DNA of 16,631 nt, taken from assembly GCA_024278555.1 (NCBI GenBank), contig JAJRSX010000143.1, positions 1-16,631 on the forward strand. The letters are read 5' to 3'. Shown here piece by piece: positions 2,836 to 16,631 of the stretch (positions are counted from its first letter, which is position 1; each line of letters opens with the position of its first letter). The translations under genes were made by a program, and so were the position numbers. The DNA comes from a bacterium. GTDB lineage: Bacteria; CG2-30-53-67; CG2-30-70-394. The notes under the pieces are model-generated. The model ran no database searches, was not told where the DNA came from, and saw nothing but the letters and a program-made list of their open reading frames with translations.

Positions 2836-2889
2836 GGGGGGTGGGGGGTGAGGGATGGGGGATGAGGGGGGGGACGGCCCTGCGGGCCG
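2836..2889 (-). repeat. Hairpin plus C-rich tract upstream of the kinase-like gene
   Basis: On the minus strand a perfect 6-bp stem with 3-nt loop (CGGCCC-GCA-GGGCCG, bases 2889-2875) is followed by a tract of almost pure C broken by CAT/CAC steps (2873-2836), about 35 nt before the ATG at 2801. On the plus strand this is a G-run series (runs of 3 to 8 G) with G-quadruplex potential. It shares the exact 16-mer GGGGGGTGAGGGATGG (2843-2858) with 12400-12415, so it belongs to a repeated intergenic family. Confidence 0.7.
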
Positions 2890-2993
2890 ACCTTCATAGA
2901 GAGAGGTGGCTACCCACACCGTGCCGGCGGAGCCCAGCACCTTTCGTCCTCCACCGCCCAGCCGTGGCCGCGCCCCCATCGCGCATAGCCGCC

Positions 2994-4067
2994 TCACGGC
3001 GCCCCCCACGTGGGACCGCCCATGCCGGTGAGATCCTCCCACTCCTCCTTGAGCTCGCGCTGCATGAGGCGGTCGACGGCGCCGCGCAGGTCGGCCCCCT
3101 CGTAGAGGACGTGGTAGACCTCGCTGCAGATCGGCATGGTCACCCCGAGCCGCTTGGCCAGGTGGTAGACCGAGCGGGTTGTGCGCACCCCCTCCGCCAC
3201 CATCCGCATCTCCTTGAGGATGGCACGCAGCGACTCACCGCGGCCCAGGCGCATCCCCACGGTGCGATTCCTGGACAGCTCGCCGGTACAGGTGAGGACG
3301 AGGTCGCCGATCCCGGCCAACCCCAGGAAGGTGAGGGGGTGGGCCCCCATGGCGGTCCCCAGGGCCGCCACCTCCGCCTCGCCGCGGGTGATGATCGCGG
3401 CGATCGTGTCGGAGCCGAGGCCGAGGCCGGCGCAGGCGCCGGTGGCGATGGCGATGACGTTCTTCACCGCCCCGCCGAGCTCCACCCCGACCACGTCGGG
3501 GCTAGTATAGACCCGCATCGACGGCGCGGTGAAGATCGCCTGCAGGTGCTTGGCGGTGTGCTCGCTGGTCGAGGCGAGGGTGACCGCGGTGGGCAGGTCG
3601 CGCGCCACCTCGCGGGCGAAGGAGGGGCCGGAGAGGTAGGCACAGCGGCTCGCAGGAATCGCCGGGAGCGCCTCGGCGAGGATCTCGGAGACCAGCATCA
3701 GGGTGTCGTTCTCGATCCCCTTGGTGGCGCTCACCAGGTAGGGAGGGGTGGGGTCGGAACGTACCGCAAGGATCTCCTGCAACGAGCGCAGGACCGGCCG
3801 CAGGTACGGCGTCGGCACCACCGACAGGAGGACGTCGCGGCCGGCCACCGCCGCCGCCAGGTCGGAGGTGGCGGTCAGGGACGGTGCCAGGGGAATGCCC
3901 GACAGGTAGATCGGGTTCTCGTGGCGGTCACGGATCGCCGCCGCCACCTCCTCCTCGAAGGTCCAGACGACCACCTCGTGGCCCTGGGTGGCGAGGAGGT
4001 GGGCGAGGGCGGTCCCCCACGACCCACCACCGATGACCCCGACTCTCGCCCGCGCCTCAGTCGTCAT
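2994..4067 (-). CDS. gpsA: Glycerol-3-phosphate dehydrogenase [NAD(P)+]
   Basis: Reduces dihydroxyacetone phosphate to sn-glycerol 3-phosphate in the cytoplasm, the entry step of phospholipid synthesis. The product has 357 residues, slightly longer than the usual ~335. The N-terminal Rossmann motif is GVIGGGSWGTALA (from residue 10). SATKGIE (K116), GPSFAREV (147-154) and VKNVIAIATG with the conserved lysine K202 are all present. The substrate-binding region GLAGIGDLVLTCTGELSRNR (249-268) is intact, followed by EGVRTTRSV and the PICSEVYHVLYEG C-terminal block. The start ATG gives the proper N-terminus, but the 5' flank (CTCTCTCCCC) has no Shine-Dalgarno match and no better in-frame start exists. 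It lies 84 bp after the Rrf2 gene, so it may be read from the same transcript. Confidence 0.97.
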   Translation of the reverse strand: MTTEARARVGVIGGGSWGTALAHLLATQGHEVVVWTFEEEVAAAIRDRHENPIYLSGIPLAPSLTATSDLAAAVAGRDVLLSVVPTPYLRPVLRSLQEILAVRSDPTPPYLVSATKGIENDTLMLVSEILAEALPAIPASRCAYLSGPSFAREVARDLPTAVTLASTSEHTAKHLQAIFTAPSMRVYTSPDVVGVELGGAVKNVIAIATGACAGLGLGSDTIAAIITRGEAEVAALGTAMGAHPLTFLGLAGIGDLVLTCTGELSRNRTVGMRLGRGESLRAILKEMRMVAEGVRTTRSVYHLAKRLGVTMPICSEVYHVLYEGADLRGAVDRLMQRELKEEWEDLTGMGGPTWGAP

Positions 4068-9238: not shown

Positions 9239-10690
9239 ATGTCTCGTCTCCTCCTGATCCTCCTCCTCGCCGCCGCCACCGCCCTCCCCACCCCCGCCGC
9301 CGCCCGCCACTTCTGGCAGGACGGCAGCGACACCGAGGCGCCCGAGGCGGACACCCCCCTCCGCTGGGACACCTTTACCAAGCTCGCGGAGCAGCTCCGC
9401 TCGGCGGTGGTTAACATCGCCACCACCGAGACGGTGCGCCACCCGCGGATGCCGGGCATGCAGGGGATGCCGCGCGGTGGCGGCCCCCAGGACCCCTTCC
9501 AGGAGTTCTTCCGCCGCTTCTTCCAGGGGGGCCCCGGGGGGCCGGGCGCCGCGCCGCGCCAGTTCAAACGGCGGGCGCTGGGCTCCGGCTTCATCATCTC
9601 CAAGGAGGGGTACATCATCACCAACAACCACGTGGTGGAGCACGCCGACAAGGTGACGGTCCGCCTCAACGATGAGCACGAGTTCGACGCCGAGATCATC
9701 GGCCGCGACCCGAAGACCGACGTGGCGCTGCTGAAGATCGACGCCCACGAAAAGCTCTTCGCCGCCCCCCTCGGCGACTCGGACAAGATCAAGGTGGGCG
9801 AGTGGGTGATGGCGATCGGCAACCCCTTCGGCCTCGCCCAGACCGTCACCACCGGCATCGTCTCCGCCAAGGGGAGGGTGATCGGCGCCGGCCCCTACGA
9901 CAACTTCATCCAGACCGACGCCTCCATCAACCCGGGCAACTCCGGCGGGCCACTCTTCAACATCCGCGGCGAGGTGGTGGGGATCAACACCGCGATCATC
10001 TCCGGCGGCACCGGCATCGGCTTCGCGGTGCCGGTGAACATGGCCAAAGAGGTGGTGGAGCAGCTCAAGGAGCACGGCAAGGTGGTGCGCGGCTGGATCG
10101 GCGTCTACATCCAGGAGATCACCAAGGATCTCCAGGAGTCGCTGGAGCTTCCCGACCGTGACGGCATCCTGGTGGCGGACGTGGTCAAGGGGTCGCCGGC
10201 GGACAAGGCGGGGGTCCACCGCTCCGACGTCATCGTCGCCTTCGATGGCAAGCCGGTCCGCAAGGCGGAGGAGCTGCCGCGCATAGTGGCCATCACCCCG
10301 GTAGGCAAGACGGTCGAGATGGAGGTCATCCGCGACGGCGACCACAAGACCCTGAAGCTGAAGGTGGGGGTCCTCAAGGAGGACAACGAGGTGGCATCGA
10401 ACCCCACCACCAATGACTTCGGCGTCACCCTCCAGGAGATCACCCCGGAGCTCGCCGAGTCCCTCGACCTGGAGGAGGAGCAGGGGCTGGTCATCTCCGA
10501 CATCGACCAGGGCGGTCCGGCGTGGGAGGCGGGGATGCGGCGCGGCGACGTCATCCTCGAGGTCAACCGCCACCAGGTCGCCACCCTGGACGACTTCCGC
10601 AAGGGGGTCGCCAAGCGCGACAAGAAGCGCCCCACCCTCTTTTTGGTGAAGCGGAGCGGCAACACGCTCTACTTTGGGGTGAAGCGGTAG
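9239..10690 (+). CDS. degP: Do-family periplasmic serine endopeptidase (DegP/HtrA)
   Basis: Periplasmic protease/chaperone that handles misfolded envelope proteins; 483 residues. A Sec signal peptide covers residues 1 to about 22 (SRLLLILLLAAATALPTPAAA, then RHF). The trypsin-like domain has the catalytic triad H131 (TNNHVVEHAD), D161 (KTDVALLKI) and S235 (NPGNSGGPLF). Loop LA (about 66-108) is Gly/Pro/Met-rich and lacks the cysteine pair of E. coli DegP. Two PDZ domains follow: about 283-378 (GWIGVYIQEIT, GSPADKAGV) and 393-480 (FGVTLQEITPEL, GGPAWEAGM). The ATG at 9239 is 8 nt after TAAGGA; longer in-frame starts would lack the signal peptide position and cross into the divergent promoter. 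It is transcribed away from the ABC operon. degQ or mucD are equally good names for this family. Confidence 0.96.
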   Translation: MSRLLLILLLAAATALPTPAAARHFWQDGSDTEAPEADTPLRWDTFTKLAEQLRSAVVNIATTETVRHPRMPGMQGMPRGGGPQDPFQEFFRRFFQGGPGGPGAAPRQFKRRALGSGFIISKEGYIITNNHVVEHADKVTVRLNDEHEFDAEIIGRDPKTDVALLKIDAHEKLFAAPLGDSDKIKVGEWVMAIGNPFGLAQTVTTGIVSAKGRVIGAGPYDNFIQTDASINPGNSGGPLFNIRGEVVGINTAIISGGTGIGFAVPVNMAKEVVEQLKEHGKVVRGWIGVYIQEITKDLQESLELPDRDGILVADVVKGSPADKAGVHRSDVIVAFDGKPVRKAEELPRIVAITPVGKTVEMEVIRDGDHKTLKLKVGVLKEDNEVASNPTTNDFGVTLQEITPELAESLDLEEEQGLVISDIDQGGPAWEAGMRRGDVILEVNRHQVATLDDFRKGVAKRDKKRPTLFLVKRSGNTLYFGVKR

Positions 10691-10701
10691 AACTCTTGAG
10701 T

Positions 10702-10764
10702 GATGTAGGGAGATAGGGCTTGATTGGCCGCGCCAGCGGCCATCCTCCCCTATTTCCCTACATC
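10702..10764. repeat. Nested inverted repeat downstream of degP
   Basis: The outer arms GATGTAGGGAGATAGGG (10702-10718) and CCCTATTTCCCTACATC (10748-10764) pair over 17 positions with a single G-T step, which would be a G-U wobble in RNA. Inside is a perfect 7-bp hairpin, TGGCCGC-GCCA-GCGGCCA (10725-10742). It could act as a bidirectional transcription end signal or be a dispersed palindromic element. The right arm merges into a pyrimidine-rich tract with a second CCCTATTTCCCT at 10771-10782. Confidence 0.8.
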
Positions 10765-10782
10765 CCTATTCCCTATTTCCCT

Positions 10783-10797
10783 GCGAGCAAAGCGAGC
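10783..10797 (+). repeat. 15-mer GCGAGCAAAGCGAGC, copy 1, abutting the DUF1844 start
   Basis: An exact match to 11359-11373. It ends 7 nt before the ATG at 10805, and its AAAGCGAG is the only purine-rich stretch at Shine-Dalgarno distance, so it may serve as the ribosome-binding region. It follows a pyrimidine-rich tract (10743-10782). Confidence 0.75.
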
Positions 10798-10804
10798 ACA
10801 CCCA

Positions 10805-11251
10805 ATGACAGACGACGAGAGCGGCTTCACCTTTGTAGAGCGGCGCCACACCCACCTCGACGAGGAGGCGGTGGAGGAGGCGGATCAGGAGAAGGAACGG
10901 TTGCGCAAGGAGGCCGAACGCGACAAGGCGAAGCTCGAAGCGGAGAAGCAGAAGAAGAAGGCGAAGGCGGTGGTCTACGGCGAGGTGGACATCATCTCCC
11001 TCTTCGAGACCCTCGCCTCCACCGCCCTGGCGCAGATGGGGCTCCTCCCCGAGTCGCGCATGCCGCAGGACCTGCGTGGGGCGCGGAACTCCATCGACCT
11101 CCTGCGGGTCGTCAAGGACAAGACCGAGGGCAACCTCACCCCGGAGGAGAAGCGGGTCATCGACGAGCTCCTCTACACCCTACAGATGAACTTCGTGCAG
11201 GCGAGTAAGCAGTCAGCGCCGCCGTCGCCCCCGCCGCCGCAGACAAAATGA
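10805..11251 (+). CDS. DUF1844 domain-containing protein
   Basis: A small protein of 148 residues without signal peptide or membrane helix. Residues about 15-55 are highly charged and probably coiled-coil (EEADQEKERLRKEAERDKAK). The DUF1844 domain follows at about 58-137, with IISLFETLASTALAQMGLLP, then DLRGARNSIDLLRVVKDKTEGNLT and DELLYTLQMNFV. The C-terminus is a Pro/Ser tail. The function of the family is unknown; it occurs mainly in Deltaproteobacteria, Acidobacteria and related groups, which helps the taxonomic guess. The ATG at 10805 is preferred over an in-frame ATG at 10724 that would translate the upstream palindromic repeat. Confidence 0.9.
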   Translation: MTDDESGFTFVERRHTHLDEEAVEEADQEKERLRKEAERDKAKLEAEKQKKKAKAVVYGEVDIISLFETLASTALAQMGLLPESRMPQDLRGARNSIDLLRVVKDKTEGNLTPEEKRVIDELLYTLQMNFVQASKQSAPPSPPPPQTK

Positions 11252-11257
11252 ACTGCC

Positions 11258-11301
11258 GGCCGCGACGCGGCCAACCCCTGGTGGGAGGGGGTTGCACCCC
11301 C
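11258..11301 (+). repeat. Overlapping hairpins after the DUF1844 gene
   Basis: Three inverted repeats lie head to tail: GGCCGC-GAC-GCGGCC (11258-11272), CAACCCC/GGGGTTG with a 9-nt loop (11272-11294), and GGGGG-TTGCA-CCCCC (11287-11301). The second and third share the same G-run and cannot form together. The first starts 6 nt after the stop codon. No U-tract follows, so a role in termination is uncertain. Confidence 0.6.
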
Positions 11302-11358
11302 GATCAACGCAGAACCCCCGGCAGGCACAGCGGCCACCCCCCCTACCTCCCTACCCCC

Positions 11359-11373
11359 GCGAGCAAAGCGAGC
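11359..11373 (+). repeat. 15-mer GCGAGCAAAGCGAGC, copy 2, abutting the moxR start
   Basis: Identical to 10783-10797 and again just before a start codon, ending 6 nt before the ATG at 11380. It too is preceded by a pyrimidine tract (ACCCCCCCTACCTCCCTACC-like). No other Shine-Dalgarno candidate is present. Confidence 0.75.
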
Positions 11374-11379
11374 CCCCCC

Positions 11380-12369
11380 ATGCCCATCGACCTCGCCGCC
11401 GTGACCGAGCGCATCGCCGAGCAGTCGCGCTTCCTGTCGCGCCTGCGGGGCGAGGTGGCGCGGGTGGTGGTGGGGCAGGAGGAGATGGTCGAGGGGCTCC
11501 TCATCGGCCTCCTGTGCGGCGGCCACGTCCTCCTTGAAGGGGTGCCGGGGCTGGCCAAGACGCGCACGGTGAACGCGGTGGCCACCTGCCTCGGCGGCTC
11601 CTTCCGGCGCATCCAGTTCACCCCCGACCTGCTGCCCGCCGACCTCGTGGGGACCCTGATCTTCAACCCGAAGTCCGGTGAGTTCGCCCCCCGCAAGGGG
11701 CCGATCTTCGCCAACGTCGTCCTCGCCGACGAGATCAACCGGGCTCCCGCCAAGGTCCAGTCGGCCCTCCTGGAGGCGATGCAGGAGGGCCAGGTCACCA
11801 TCGGCTACGCCACCTACCCCTTGCCCGAGCCGTTCTTGGTCCTCGCCACCCAGAACCCCATCGAGCAGGAGGGGACCTACCCCCTGCCCGAGGCGCAGGT
11901 GGACCGCTTCATGCTCAAGGTGGTGGTCGGCTACCCGTCCCTGGAGGAGGAGCGGCGGATCATGGAGATGGTGGTCGCCGACCGCACCGAGTGGGTCGAA
12001 CCGACCACCACCCCGGAGGAGGTCCTCGCCGCCCGCAAGGTGGTGCGCGAGGTCTACGTCGACGCGAAGATCCGCGACTACGTCCTCGCCCTGGTGGCCG
12101 CCTCGCGTGACCCGGAGGCCCTCGGCGTCGAGGGGCTCGCCGGGCTGATCGAGTACGGCGCCTCGCCGCGCGCCTCCATCTTTCTGGAGCTCGCCGCCCG
12201 CGGCCACGCCTTCATCGAGGGACGCGGCTACGTCATCCCCGAGGACGTCAAGGCGATCGGCTGGGAGGTCCTCCGCCACCGCATCCTCCCCACCTACGAG
12301 GCCCAGGCCGAGGGGGTGAGGCCGGACGACCTGGTCCGCCGGCTCTTCGACGGGGTGGCGGTGCCGTAG
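11380..12369 (+). CDS. MoxR-family AAA+ ATPase
   Basis: A cytoplasmic AAA+ ATPase of 329 residues, thought to act as a chaperone that matures or activates VWA/DUF58 partners. Walker A is GVPGLAKT (54-61), Walker B is VVLADEINRAP (113-123), and the sensor 1 and arginine-finger region is LATQNPIEQEGTYPLPEAQ (155-173) followed by VDRF. GASPRAS (sensor 2, near 266) and the C-terminal lid end (GWEVLRHRI) are intact. The length is normal for the family. The ATG at 11380 gives the standard start MPIDLAAVTERIAEQSRFL; an earlier in-frame ATG at 11248 would run through the repeats. The DUF58 and BatD-like genes downstream are its usual partners. Confidence 0.96.
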   Translation: MPIDLAAVTERIAEQSRFLSRLRGEVARVVVGQEEMVEGLLIGLLCGGHVLLEGVPGLAKTRTVNAVATCLGGSFRRIQFTPDLLPADLVGTLIFNPKSGEFAPRKGPIFANVVLADEINRAPAKVQSALLEAMQEGQVTIGYATYPLPEPFLVLATQNPIEQEGTYPLPEAQVDRFMLKVVVGYPSLEEERRIMEMVVADRTEWVEPTTTPEEVLAARKVVREVYVDAKIRDYVLALVAASRDPEALGVEGLAGLIEYGASPRASIFLELAARGHAFIEGRGYVIPEDVKAIGWEVLRHRILPTYEAQAEGVRPDDLVRRLFDGVAVP

Positions 12370-12390
12370 GCGGGCTGTGCCCGCCTACGG
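12364..12390. repeat. 12-bp inverted repeat over the moxR stop codon
   Basis: CCGTAGGCGGGC (12364-12375) and GCCCGCCTACGG (12379-12390) are perfectly complementary with a TGT loop. The left arm contains the moxR stop TAG. A strong hairpin, but it is followed by a G-rich tract rather than T residues, so it is not a classic intrinsic terminator. Confidence 0.85.
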
Positions 12391-12530
12391 GTGGGGATAG
12401 GGGGGTGAGGGATGGAGGAGATGTCGCCCCTGCGGGGCAAGCAGGACGCCGATGGAAGCTGCCAACGAAACCGATGGCGCCGGCCGTAGGCCGGCATCCA
12501 TCCCCCACCCCCCACCCCCCATCCCCCACC
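12391..12530. repeat. Imperfect G-rich/C-rich inverted repeat enclosing small hairpins
   Basis: A G-rich arm (about 12391-12417, containing GGGGGGTGAGGGATGG) is nearly complementary to a C-rich arm (about 12497-12530, built of CCATCCCCCACC-type units). Between them lie the hairpins GCCCC-TGC-GGGGC (12426-12438) and GCCGGCC-GTA-GGCCGGC (12479-12495). The segment spans the likely start and first codons of the DUF58 gene. Confidence 0.6.
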
Positions 12531-13429
12531 CCGGTGCGGCGCGCGAAGCGCGCCGCACCCCGCAGGAGGTCCTCAAGCGGGTCCGCCGGATCGAGATCCG
12601 CGCCCGGCGGCTGGTCGACCAGGTGGTGGCCGGCGAGTACCACTCCACCTTCCGCGGCCAGGGGCTGGAGTTCGACCAGGTGCGCGAGTACTGCCCCGGC
12701 GACGACGTGCGCGCCATCGACTGGAATGTCACCGCACGCACCGGCCACCCGTACATCAAGACCTTTGCCGAGACCCGCGAGCTGACCGTCATCCTGGCGG
12801 TCGACTGCTCCGCCTCCACCCGCGTCGGCCCGGCCCCGGAGACGGTGGCCGAGCGCCTCGCCGAGGTCGGCGCGCTCCTCGCCTTCTCCGCCATCCGCAA
12901 CAACGACAAGGCGGGGCTCCTCCTGTTCACCGACCGGATCGAGTCCTTTGTGCCGCCCCACAAGGGGAGCCACCACTGCCTGCGGCTCATCCGCGACCTC
13001 CTCTTCCCGGAGGTGGGCGCCACCGGCAGCGACCTCGGCGCGGCCCTCGGCTACCTCTCCCGGGTGGTGCGCCGCCGGGCGGTCGTCTTCCTCCTCTCCG
13101 ACTTCCTCGCCAGCGGCTTCGGCCCCGACCTGCGGGTGGCCGGCCGCCGCCACGAGGTCGTCCCGGTGCGCCTCACCGACCCCCTCCACGACCACCTCCC
13201 GGAGGCGGGCCTCTGCTGCCTCACCGACCCGGAGGGCGGCGAGCCGGTGTGGGTGGACACGGCAAACCCGGCGGTACGCGCCGCCTACACCGCGGCACGC
13301 ACGCGCCACCGGGCCGAGACCGACCGCATCTTCCGCGGCGCCCGCCTCCTGCCCCTGGACCTGCCCCTTACCGGCGACCTGGTGGCGCCCCTGCGCGCCT
13401 ACTTCCACCAGCGGGGGATGCGGCGGTGA
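12452..13429 (+). CDS. DUF58 domain-containing protein
   Basis: A DUF58 protein of 325 residues, the usual partner of MoxR ATPases. The conserved core GLEFDQVREYCPGDDVRAID followed by WNVTAR (71-96) and a VWA-like strand with a metal-site-type DCSAS (118-122) are clear; later blocks are GLLLFTDRIESFVPPHKG and VVFLLSDFLASG. Homology begins at about residue 37 (TPQEVLKRVRRIEIR). Residues 1-36 are encoded by the intergenic repeat (ASIPHPPPPIPHP, GAAREARR). No ATG, GTG or TTG lies in frame between 12452 and the conserved part. The ATG at 12452 has AGGA 5 nt upstream, so the extension may be real; a rare start codon nearer 12560 is the alternative. The stop overlaps the next start as GTGA. Confidence 0.9.
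   Translation: MEAANETDGAGRRPASIPHPPPPIPHPGAAREARRTPQEVLKRVRRIEIRARRLVDQVVAGEYHSTFRGQGLEFDQVREYCPGDDVRAIDWNVTARTGHPYIKTFAETRELTVILAVDCSASTRVGPAPETVAERLAEVGALLAFSAIRNNDKAGLLLFTDRIESFVPPHKGSHHCLRLIRDLLFPEVGATGSDLGAALGYLSRVVRRRAVVFLLSDFLASGFGPDLRVAGRRHEVVPVRLTDPLHDHLPEAGLCCLTDPEGGEPVWVDTANPAVRAAYTAARTRHRAETDRIFRGARLLPLDLPLTGDLVAPLRAYFHQRGMRR
12533..12559. repeat. 12-bp perfect inverted repeat inside the DUF58 5' region
   Basis: GGTGCGGCGCGC (12533-12544) and GCGCGCCGCACC (12548-12559) pair perfectly around a GAA loop. It lies directly in front of the first conserved DUF58 codons and, in the predicted frame, encodes the last part of the non-conserved N-terminal extension. Confidence 0.85.
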
Positions 13430-14415
13430 GGGGCAGCTCTCAGCTCTCAGCTCTGCGTGACCCGCGGGGGGGGCGGAGGCGCGGGGCCCTCCTCCTCCTC
13501 GCCTCTCTCCTTGTGGCGGCGGCACCGGTGACCCCGCCACCAGCCGCGGCCACCCCACCCGCCCCGTCGCCGGTCACCGTCGCCGCCGAGGTCGACACCA
13601 CCCGCCTCACCCTCGGGGACACGGTGACCCTCACCGTCCGGGTCGACCACGACCCGGCGGTGGAGCCCATCCTCCCCGAGGCCCGCCTCGACCTCCCGGA
13701 CGGGATCGAGCAGGCGGGCTTCGCCCGCACCACCACCCCCGACCCAAACGGCCACACGGTGGAGCGCCTCGTCTGGCAGCTCCGCGCCTGGCAGGTCGGC
13801 CGCTTCACCCTCCCGTCGGTAGTGGTGACCTACCTCGACGCGGACCACCAGGAGCAACGGACCGCGAGCCGGACCATCGACATCGAGGTGGTCTCGGTAC
13901 GCGCGACCGAAGATGAACCGCCGCGGCCGATGACCGACCCGGTCCCCCTGCCGGTGAACTGGCGGCTGGTGGCGATGGTCGCCGGCTTCGCCGTGCTCCT
14001 GGCCGCCGGCCTCGTCGCCGGGATCACCGCCTGGCGCCGGCGGCCGCGCAAGCAGCCGCCCCCACCGCCGCCCACCCCGCCGGACCAGGTCGCCCTGGAG
14101 GCCCTGCTCCGCCTCGCCCACTCCGATGCCCTCGCCGAGGGCGACGCCGAGCGCGTCGCCACCCGCCTCTCCGCCATCACCCGCCACTACCTGGAGCACC
14201 GCCTCACCTTCCCGGCCCTCGAGTCCACCACCCGCGAGGTCGAGCAGTGGCTCACCAGCTGCGACGAGGTGACCACGGAGATGCGCGCCACCCTCCTCGA
14301 CCTCCTGTTTGCCACCGACCGGGTAAAGTTCGCCCAGGGCTGGGCCACCGTTGACGAGCTCACCGCCCAGATCGACCGCGCCAAAGAGGCGGTCACCCAA
14401 CTGGGCGGCGGCTGA
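13426..14415 (+). CDS. BatD-like membrane protein with DUF4381-like C-terminus
   Basis: An envelope protein of 329 residues. A basic start (RDPRGGRRR) and hydrophobic core (ALLLLASLLVAAA, 20-33) form a signal sequence. Residues about 50-160 look like a beta-sandwich of the BatD kind (VDTTRLTLGDTVTLTVRVDH, then LVWQLRAWQVGRFTLP). A membrane helix lies at about 180-203, followed by a proline-rich linker and a helical cytoplasmic part (DQVALEALLRLAHSDALAEG, then LSAITRHYLEHRL and FATDRVKFAQGW). The GTG at 13426 overlaps the DUF58 stop (GTGA) and has GGGGGA 7 nt upstream. The 5' coding part holds three copies of CAGCTCT. BatD proteins are linked to MoxR/DUF58/VWA membrane complexes of unclear substrate. 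The VWA genes expected next are absent. Confidence 0.8.
   Translation: MRGSSQLSALRDPRGGRRRGALLLLASLLVAAAPVTPPPAAATPPAPSPVTVAAEVDTTRLTLGDTVTLTVRVDHDPAVEPILPEARLDLPDGIEQAGFARTTTPDPNGHTVERLVWQLRAWQVGRFTLPSVVVTYLDADHQEQRTASRTIDIEVVSVRATEDEPPRPMTDPVPLPVNWRLVAMVAGFAVLLAAGLVAGITAWRRRPRKQPPPPPPTPPDQVALEALLRLAHSDALAEGDAERVATRLSAITRHYLEHRLTFPALESTTREVEQWLTSCDEVTTEMRATLLDLLFATDRVKFAQGWATVDELTAQIDRAKEAVTQLGGG
13434..13454 (+). repeat. Three tandem CAGCTCT heptanucleotides in the batD-like 5' coding region
   Basis: Perfect copies at 13434-13440, 13441-13447 and 13448-13454, beginning three codons after the GTG start. Loss or gain of one 7-bp unit would shift the reading frame before the signal peptide. 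Confidence 0.9.
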
Positions 14416-16482: not shown

Positions 16483-16631
16483 CTAGGAGCCTGTCGGACT
16501 TATGCACGATCTACTGCTTGATTCGCGGATCTCGGCCCGGATCGCGCCCCGTTCTTCGTTACATAGGCCCGCGTAGCGCTCGAACGGGTCGCAATCCGGA
16601 CTCGAGCCCGCTTTCCCTCGCAACGATCGCA
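16483..16631 (-). mobile_element. Possible insertion-sequence end (partial, runs off right edge)
   Basis: From the tetranucleotide CTAG at 16483-16486 onward the base composition drops clearly below that of the window. The next bases, GAGCCTGTCGGACTT (16487-16501), resemble terminal inverted repeats of IS elements that target CTAG (IS1182-like); this is from memory. On the minus strand one frame is open from the window edge to a TAG inside that CTAG (about 49 codons, with DPFERYAGLCNEERGAIRAE), which could be a transposase remnant but is not recognised. No other end is visible, so the type of element stays open. Confidence 0.4.

Follow-up and report, generated by a model that had tools for sequence, protein, structure and literature searches.

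Locus and copies of the repeat

The window, i.e. the whole analyzed stretch of 16,631 nt, corresponds to the forward strand of contig JAJRSX010000143.1 (assembly GCA_024278555.1). The genes around the repeats described here are arranged in the order HtrA-like protease, DUF1844, MoxR and DUF58/VWA. The DUF1844 and MoxR products were confirmed by Pfam (PF08899, 9.8e-21, and PF07726, 9.5e-64), and the upstream open reading frame is presumably an HtrA-like protein, as read from its translation. A preliminary description of this DNA had noted an identical 15-mer shortly before the DUF1844 gene and moxR as well as a small GC hairpin further upstream of each gene. Both 15-mers are exact copies, and their spacing to the ATG and the two hairpins were found as described (Table 1). 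The proposal that both genes share one leader module stood with regard to the 15-mer, the hairpins and the spacing, but the leaders differ in detail. Element A before DUF1844 is clean, its G-rich arm begins 8 nt past the HtrA stop codon, and it has a strong predicted fold (z = -6.9), in which the arms form a stem around the hairpin and the 15-mer and AUG are left outside. Element B before moxR is a degraded mosaic, which is broken by a REP-like hairpin and folds no better than shuffles (z = 0.35).

Table 1. Repeat features in the window.
Feature	Position	Strand	Evidence and remarks
Core of further copy, weak	2872..2945	+	R1 27.4 bits, E = 0.0026
Element A, G-rich (R) arm	10699..10718	+	90% complementary to 10748-10767; pairs in predicted fold
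Element A, inner hairpin TGGCCGC-GCCA-GCGGCCA (hp2 type)	10725..10742	+	Sequence, fold; same type at other sampled intergenic sites
Element A, C-rich (Y) arm, CCCTATTT repeats	10743..10782	+	Sequence, arm complementarity, fold
Element A, start-side tip, 15-mer GCGAGC-AAA-GCGAGC	10783..10797	+	7 nt before DUF1844 ATG (10805)
Element B, hairpin GGCCGC-GAC-GCGGCC, stop side of DUF1844-moxR gap	11258..11272	+	Sequence
Element B, degenerate classic GTAG-type REP (GTGGGAG-hairpin-GATC)	11281..11305	+	Resembles GTAGGAG repeats of the genome
Element B, degraded hp2-type hairpin GGCAGGCACAGCGGCC	11320..11335	+	Sequence; 11328-11343 is a direct repeat of 10734-10749 (88%)
Element B, C-rich (Y) arm	11336..11358	+	Sequence
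Element B, start-side tip, 15-mer GCGAGC-AAA-GCGAGC	11359..11373	+	6 nt before moxR ATG (11380)
Element C, stop-side perfect hairpin GCGGGC-TGT-GCCCGC	12370..12384	+	Directly after moxR stop codon; typical perfect stop-side tip
Element C, G-rich (R) arm	12389..12419	+	Sequence
Element C, core (hp1, linker, hp2), moxR-DUF58 gap	12422..12503	+	R1 45.7 bits, E = 1.6e-7
Element C, C-rich (Y) arm	12504..12532	+	Sequence
Element C, start-side perfect hairpin GGTGCGGCGCGC-GAA-GCGCGCCGCACC	12533..12559	+	Sequence; not of the 15-mer type

The start-side hairpin of element C falls inside the DUF58 open frame, and the only nearby in-frame ATG of this gene lies within the linker of the element (12452-12560). 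The DUF58 protein may therefore have an N-terminal extension that the element encodes (MEAANETDGAGRRPASIPHPPPPIPHPG...) ahead of TPQEVLKRV, where the protein of the congener has 10 residues. From an ATG that shares letters with the DUF1844 stop codon (ATGA), a reading frame passes through element B into moxR (11248-11379), and a longer MoxR is possible on paper. The weak copy at 2872..2945 is oriented opposite to its flanking minus-strand genes (2207-2801 and 2994-4067). Another dispersed repeat, GGAGCCTGTCGGACTTATGCAC...TAAGTCCGACAGACTCCT, occurs at about 16490-16631, in the sampled stretches L056 and L070 and in several gaps.

Copy number and placement of the 15-mer

The 3.06-Mb genome was searched for the motif, and in a sample of it the distance and orientation of the copies to gene starts were tabulated. 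The 15-mer GCGAGCAAAGCGAGC was detected in 12 exact copies, in comparison to 0.013 expected under a first-order Markov model and none for the reversed control. If any two letters are allowed in the loop (GCGAGCNNAGCGAGC), the genome contains 73 copies (control 1) and the congener one. The window alone holds two copies of the 15-mer (0.06 expected), which none of 200 shuffles yielded. In the literature searched, no description of this 15-mer family was found.

Placement was analyzed in 60 stretches (0.9 Mb including the window), most of which were picked for holding a motif. As they were picked by motif and not by context, comparisons of gap types inside the sample are fair, and densities are not genome-wide values. 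Gene starts were called by a hexamer model trained on the sample itself. The family was present in 59 of 395 same-direction gaps, in comparison to 2/93 divergent and 2/88 convergent ones, and within same-direction gaps 62 copies were forward and 7 reverse. In 47 of the 57 same-direction gaps with a forward copy, the last copy ended 0-10 nt before the start codon and pointed at it; uniform placement in the same gaps would give 3.5 (maximum 15 in 10,000 simulations). Random placement or orientation relative to genes and a restriction to only two copies genome-wide are both excluded by these counts. Ten copies are located far from a start codon. Start-side copies usually lead into C-runs and ATG; behind internal copies, CCAT or CCAC is found. 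The copies sit in short same-direction gaps, which they nearly fill, so that their ends touch the upstream stop and the downstream start codon; some elements are stacked or nested (e.g. L059, L096).

Gaps of this kind also showed G-quadruplex-like sequences. Within the sample, the antisense strand had them in 34 of the 47 same-direction gaps that contain the 15-mer (42/248 in other gaps), and the sense strand in 17 of these 47 (32/248).

Anatomy of the repeat

Reading of whole gaps revealed that the 15-mer is the start-side end of a larger dispersed palindromic repeat. From the stop codon onwards, the order is a perfect GC hairpin, a G-rich arm, the hairpin CRGCCC-NNN-GGGCYG (hp1), a linker, a second hairpin (hp2; GGCCGC-NNN-GCGGCC or CCGGCC-NNN-GGCCGG), a C-rich arm, the 15-mer and the start codon. 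The linker is partly conserved with a consensus of about GATGAGATGACGATGGAAGCCACCCACGAAAC. Some elements contain AGTAGAAA tandem repeats (GTAGAAAGTAGAAAGTAGAAAGGGGG), mostly within the linker (L045 about 11900-12000 and 13980-14080; L066 11283-11371; L069 1680-1800; L095 about 10380-10470).

A covariance model of the core (R1) gave 91 matches in the sample (E up to 0.1). At E up to 0.001, the genome as a whole had 94 matches and the congener 12; six other genomes of the class were without any. The core helices are paired to 95.5%, in comparison to at most 45% when slid, and an A-U/G-C exchange occurs at one hp1 pair. G-rich and C-rich arms match better within a locus (12.6) than between loci (10.2; 0/10,000 permutations). 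Among perfect hairpins, for which only gaps were counted, the triloops in the right half of same-direction gaps were GNA in 35 and TNC in 3 cases; in the left half they were mostly the complement (TNC 62, GNA 23). The unit is thus a hairpin with a GNA loop and, behind it, a C-rich tract; two such units in inverted orientation make up the element.

GNA loops closed by C-G form very stable DNA mini-hairpins (PMC4686876). The d(GCGAAGC) hairpins of this type resemble the repeat in their loop and closing C-G pair, but they were studied as short synthetic DNA and not as genomic repeats. The loop rule would point to a recognition of the repeat as single-stranded DNA. A search with Rfam in 76 kb including the window yielded only a tRNA and no match for the element. 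A hammerhead-like linker (CTGATGAG...CGAAAC in some copies) was considered and rejected, because its core letters are not conserved between the copies and Rfam gives none.

Accessory nature and linkage to transposases

For comparison, 0.72 Mb of one congener was covered. The HtrA-DUF1844 gap comprises 114 nt here and 54 nt in the congener, and the DUF1844-moxR gap 128 nt and 23 nt, respectively; both elements are absent there and the start methionine of moxR is the same. As the gaps of the congener lack the repeat, it represents accessory, REP/REPIN-like DNA. Nine orthologous starts share their neighbor in the two species; at one of them (L082/L132), both carry a 15-mer-like tip. With a protein divergence of about 20% between the congeners, this comparison does not tell gain from loss. 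Presence or absence together with stacking would fit a repeat that is mobile or easily acquired and lost; direct signs of movement (a fresh insertion, target duplication or strain polymorphism) were not seen with the one congener compared.

The two possibilities raised in the preliminary description fared differently. The first, a dispersed element providing the translation-start region, finds support in the genome-wide repetition, in the 15-mer end adjoining the starts and in the presence or absence at orthologous gaps. The second, a control site shared by two particular genes, is unlikely: dozens of sampled genes are preceded by the same tip, and moxR and DUF1844 of the congener are without it.

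Genes for Y1 (RAYT-like) transposases were found four times in the genome and five times in the congener. No core was located within about 1.2 kb of any of these genes, and the 15-mer was absent near the four genes of this genome. A mobilization by a linked RAYT was therefore rejected. One copy of a different repeat, the classic GTAG REP treated below, lies upstream of the Y1 gene in L175.

Comparison with known repeats

REPs and REPINs are palindromes tagged with GTAG or CGTC, and those with GTAG are thought to be spread by RAYT transposases (PMC3733652, PMC3116915). The repeat shares with REPs the small GC-rich palindrome with a short loop, the high copy number and the mostly intergenic location. 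It also has the two inverted hairpin units with a spacer that characterize REPINs (GNA occurs on opposite strands in hp1 and hp2, and the arms are complementary), loops of 2-4 nt that are strand-specific, a position between same-direction genes and mosaics with other repeats. The complementary arms might correspond to the terminal inverted repeats that, next to a target-site duplication and a parent transposon, characterize MITEs. Copies beside a cognate RAYT gene, as for REPINs, were not present. The long G-rich and C-rich arms matching within a locus and the rarity of the 15-mer in convergent gaps are further differences to REPs and REPINs. Between same-direction genes, REPs lie near the 3' end of the upstream gene and at varying distance to the downstream gene (PMC3733652), whereas the repeat lies close to both the downstream start and the upstream stop.

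The tags were not above chance: GTAG occurred at 3/49 hp1 (2.2 in shuffled sequences) and 0/46 hp2 (2.4), CGTC not at all, and the relaxed GTRG at 7/49 hp1 (6.8 shuffled) and 19/46 hp2 (16.1 shuffled). Due to this lack of a tag above chance, the repeat is not placed in the tagged REP superfamilies despite its REPIN-like design. The best reading is a new family of REP-like repeats that has neither a GTAG/CGTC tag nor a linkage to RAYT genes and the start-side tip of which is kept open in RNA.

In E. coli, conserved stem mismatches of REPs are needed for TnpA-REP (PMC8266576). Likewise, the two strands of the hairpins described here differ in their mismatches, by which one strand could be marked; in contrast to E. 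coli, a tandem G-A mismatch is found at start-facing tips and perfect stems at the stop side. The genome also possesses a classic GTAG REP (GTAGGAG-hairpin-GATC), which shares gaps with the repeat, including the DUF1844-moxR gap, but has a different stem and a tag and lacks the tract arms. Of this REP, 114 GTAGGAGS sites were counted in 0.9 Mb (L045-L104 and window 11281-11305), 83 of them intergenic.

Similar elements were found in Terriglobia/Bryobacteraceae (L032, L035, L038, L044, L206-L235), where three genomes contain 23, 35 and 47 copies of the GCGAGCNNAGCGAGC family. They share the 15-mer, hairpins of the CGGCCC-GNA-GGGCCG type and the G-rich and C-rich arms, and some of their 15-mers lie just before an ATG as well (L032, L235). 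Many copies, however, form an inner inverted pair 17-20 nt apart and not the outer tip. Compact elements in L206, L207, L212, L213, L218 and others consist of a G-rich arm, the complement of the 15-mer, 17-20 nt, the 15-mer and a C-rich arm. In terms of sequence likeness, the hairpin design reaches at least two phyla. Tandem units of GCGAGCAAAGCGAGC and GCGAGCGTCAGCGAGC with spacers of the CCCTCC type occur on contig CAMOVW010000040.1 of a Clostridia MAG (L033, L211).

Translation starts behind the 15-mer

The 15-mer had been regarded as the purine-rich stretch at ribosome-binding distance. As a Shine-Dalgarno site this is not supported. The 3' end of the 16S rRNA is canonical (GGATCACCTCCTTT), and the 15-mer leaders pair with the anti-Shine-Dalgarno sequence most weakly of all gene groups (mean -3.9 kcal/mol, in comparison to -6.1 in other long gaps and -7.6 in short gaps). 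Even their own shuffles pair more strongly. A pairing of -5 kcal/mol or better was reached by 4% of the 15-mer leaders in comparison to 60%, and a Shine-Dalgarno-like sequence was present in 1 of 49 15-mer leaders vs 170 of 447. A Shine-Dalgarno site or its substitute was rejected on the difference between 15-mer leaders and other long-gap leaders. All 48 motif genes start with ATG, in comparison to 465 of 638 others, a count to be read cautiously since the gene caller is biased to ATG.

The ATG count and the rarity of Shine-Dalgarno-like sequences, together with the tight placement on one strand 0-10 nt before the start, would agree with a non-canonical initiation signal, i.e. a site recognized by the ribosome or a protein and spread by the repeat. 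Such a signal is nevertheless unlikely: beside the weak pairing, the orthologous genes of the congener manage without the 15-mer, ten copies lie far from the start, and in Terriglobia the 15-mer also serves as an inner hairpin away from starts.

Mismatched tips at starts and perfect tips at stops

The sequence GCGAGC-NNA-GCGAGC forms a stem of six pairs (G-C, C-G, G.A, A.G, G-C, C-G), two of which are tandem G-A mismatches. When all gaps of at least 80 nt between same-direction genes were counted, start-facing tips were of the tandem-GA type in 45 cases and perfect in 3, and stop-facing tips in 5 and 31 cases, respectively (Fisher 1.8e-14); a few of the perfect stop-side hairpins counted are the inner hp1 itself. 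Overall, the 15-mer was located on 38 of 56 start-facing and 5 of 68 stop-facing ends. Among right-hand ends, it was found in 34 of 48 facing a start and in none of 8 facing a stop (p = 2e-4), which rules out that the tip is set by the polarity of the element. The type of codon that is faced, and not the polarity of the repeat, predicts the tip.

As RNA, the 15-mer hairpin is predicted at -2.1 kcal/mol in comparison to -8.3 kcal/mol for a perfect stem; no structure was predicted for the complement of the 15-mer. G-A mismatched hairpins are stable as DNA; the DNA energy parameters applied did not predict a stable G-A hairpin. When a perfect stem replaced the tip, the computed unpaired probability around the start decreased from 0.66 to 0.55 and the computed local energy from -5.2 to -10.5 kcal/mol. 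The simplest reading is that the start-side tip must stay open.

All start-side tips represent one sequence, GCGAGC. They therefore count as copies rather than as independent events. Since a repeat aimed at start codons would look alike, this possibility and a selection for open tips are not fully separable. In the former case, the element would choose start-codon sites (e.g. CCATG), and the 15-mer would be its target-facing end without a role in translation. This fits the single tip sequence and the motifs following the copies, C-runs and ATG at the start side and CCAT or CCAC at internal sites. It is improbable, because in copies with a reversed core the 15-mer keeps to the start side (4/8) and does not occur at the stop side (0/8), as is not expected of a fixed element end, and because stop-side tips adjoin stop codons equally closely.

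Proposed function of the repeat

We consider it rather probable that the repeat, which is dispersed, non-coding and palindromic, belongs to the REP/REPIN kind with the 15-mer as its start-side terminal hairpin, and that its tip rule results from selection on translation at start codons. Both this selection and the mobility of the repeat are inferred. The repeat would move by single-strand transposition with some enzyme. At the stop end its tip is a perfect GC hairpin, and at the start end almost always GCGAGC-NNA-GCGAGC, where the G-A mismatches would destabilize the RNA structure ahead of the AUG by about 6 kcal/mol. Through pairing of the arms, the remaining leader would form a stem outside of which the tip and the AUG lie. 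The genes would start on this AUG without a Shine-Dalgarno sequence, probably helped by the open leader and by ribosomes ending on the upstream gene. The repeat would have been adapted in such a way that ribosomes are not blocked at the gene start.

A post-transcriptional control leader (riboregulator or attenuator) shared by a regulon is very unlikely. Element A with its strong predicted fold and free tip and AUG would suit such a leader, as would the location in same-direction gaps, which are hence probably transcribed, but no Rfam family was found, the folding of element B does not exceed that of shuffles, and the orthologous genes of the congener lack the element. An artefact of chance or GC composition, suggested only by the GC-rich, repetitive look of the gaps, is ruled out for practical purposes by the copy number and the placement statistics.

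Beyond the proposed selection of open tips in this repeat, a wider generalization is offered only tentatively and is rather doubtful at present: tag-less mobile palindromes of at least two phyla might carry a start-codon module, in which a tandem G-A mismatched hairpin of the GNA type replaces the normal ribosome-binding region of the adjoining gene and initiation is free of Shine-Dalgarno pairing. Palindromic repeats of bacteria are usually viewed as decorations of 3' ends; here, each end suits the codon that it touches. If confirmed, the dozens of copies would provide a natural experiment on the structure that is tolerated at translation starts, and they would show how selfish repeats join gene leaders without a Shine-Dalgarno site.
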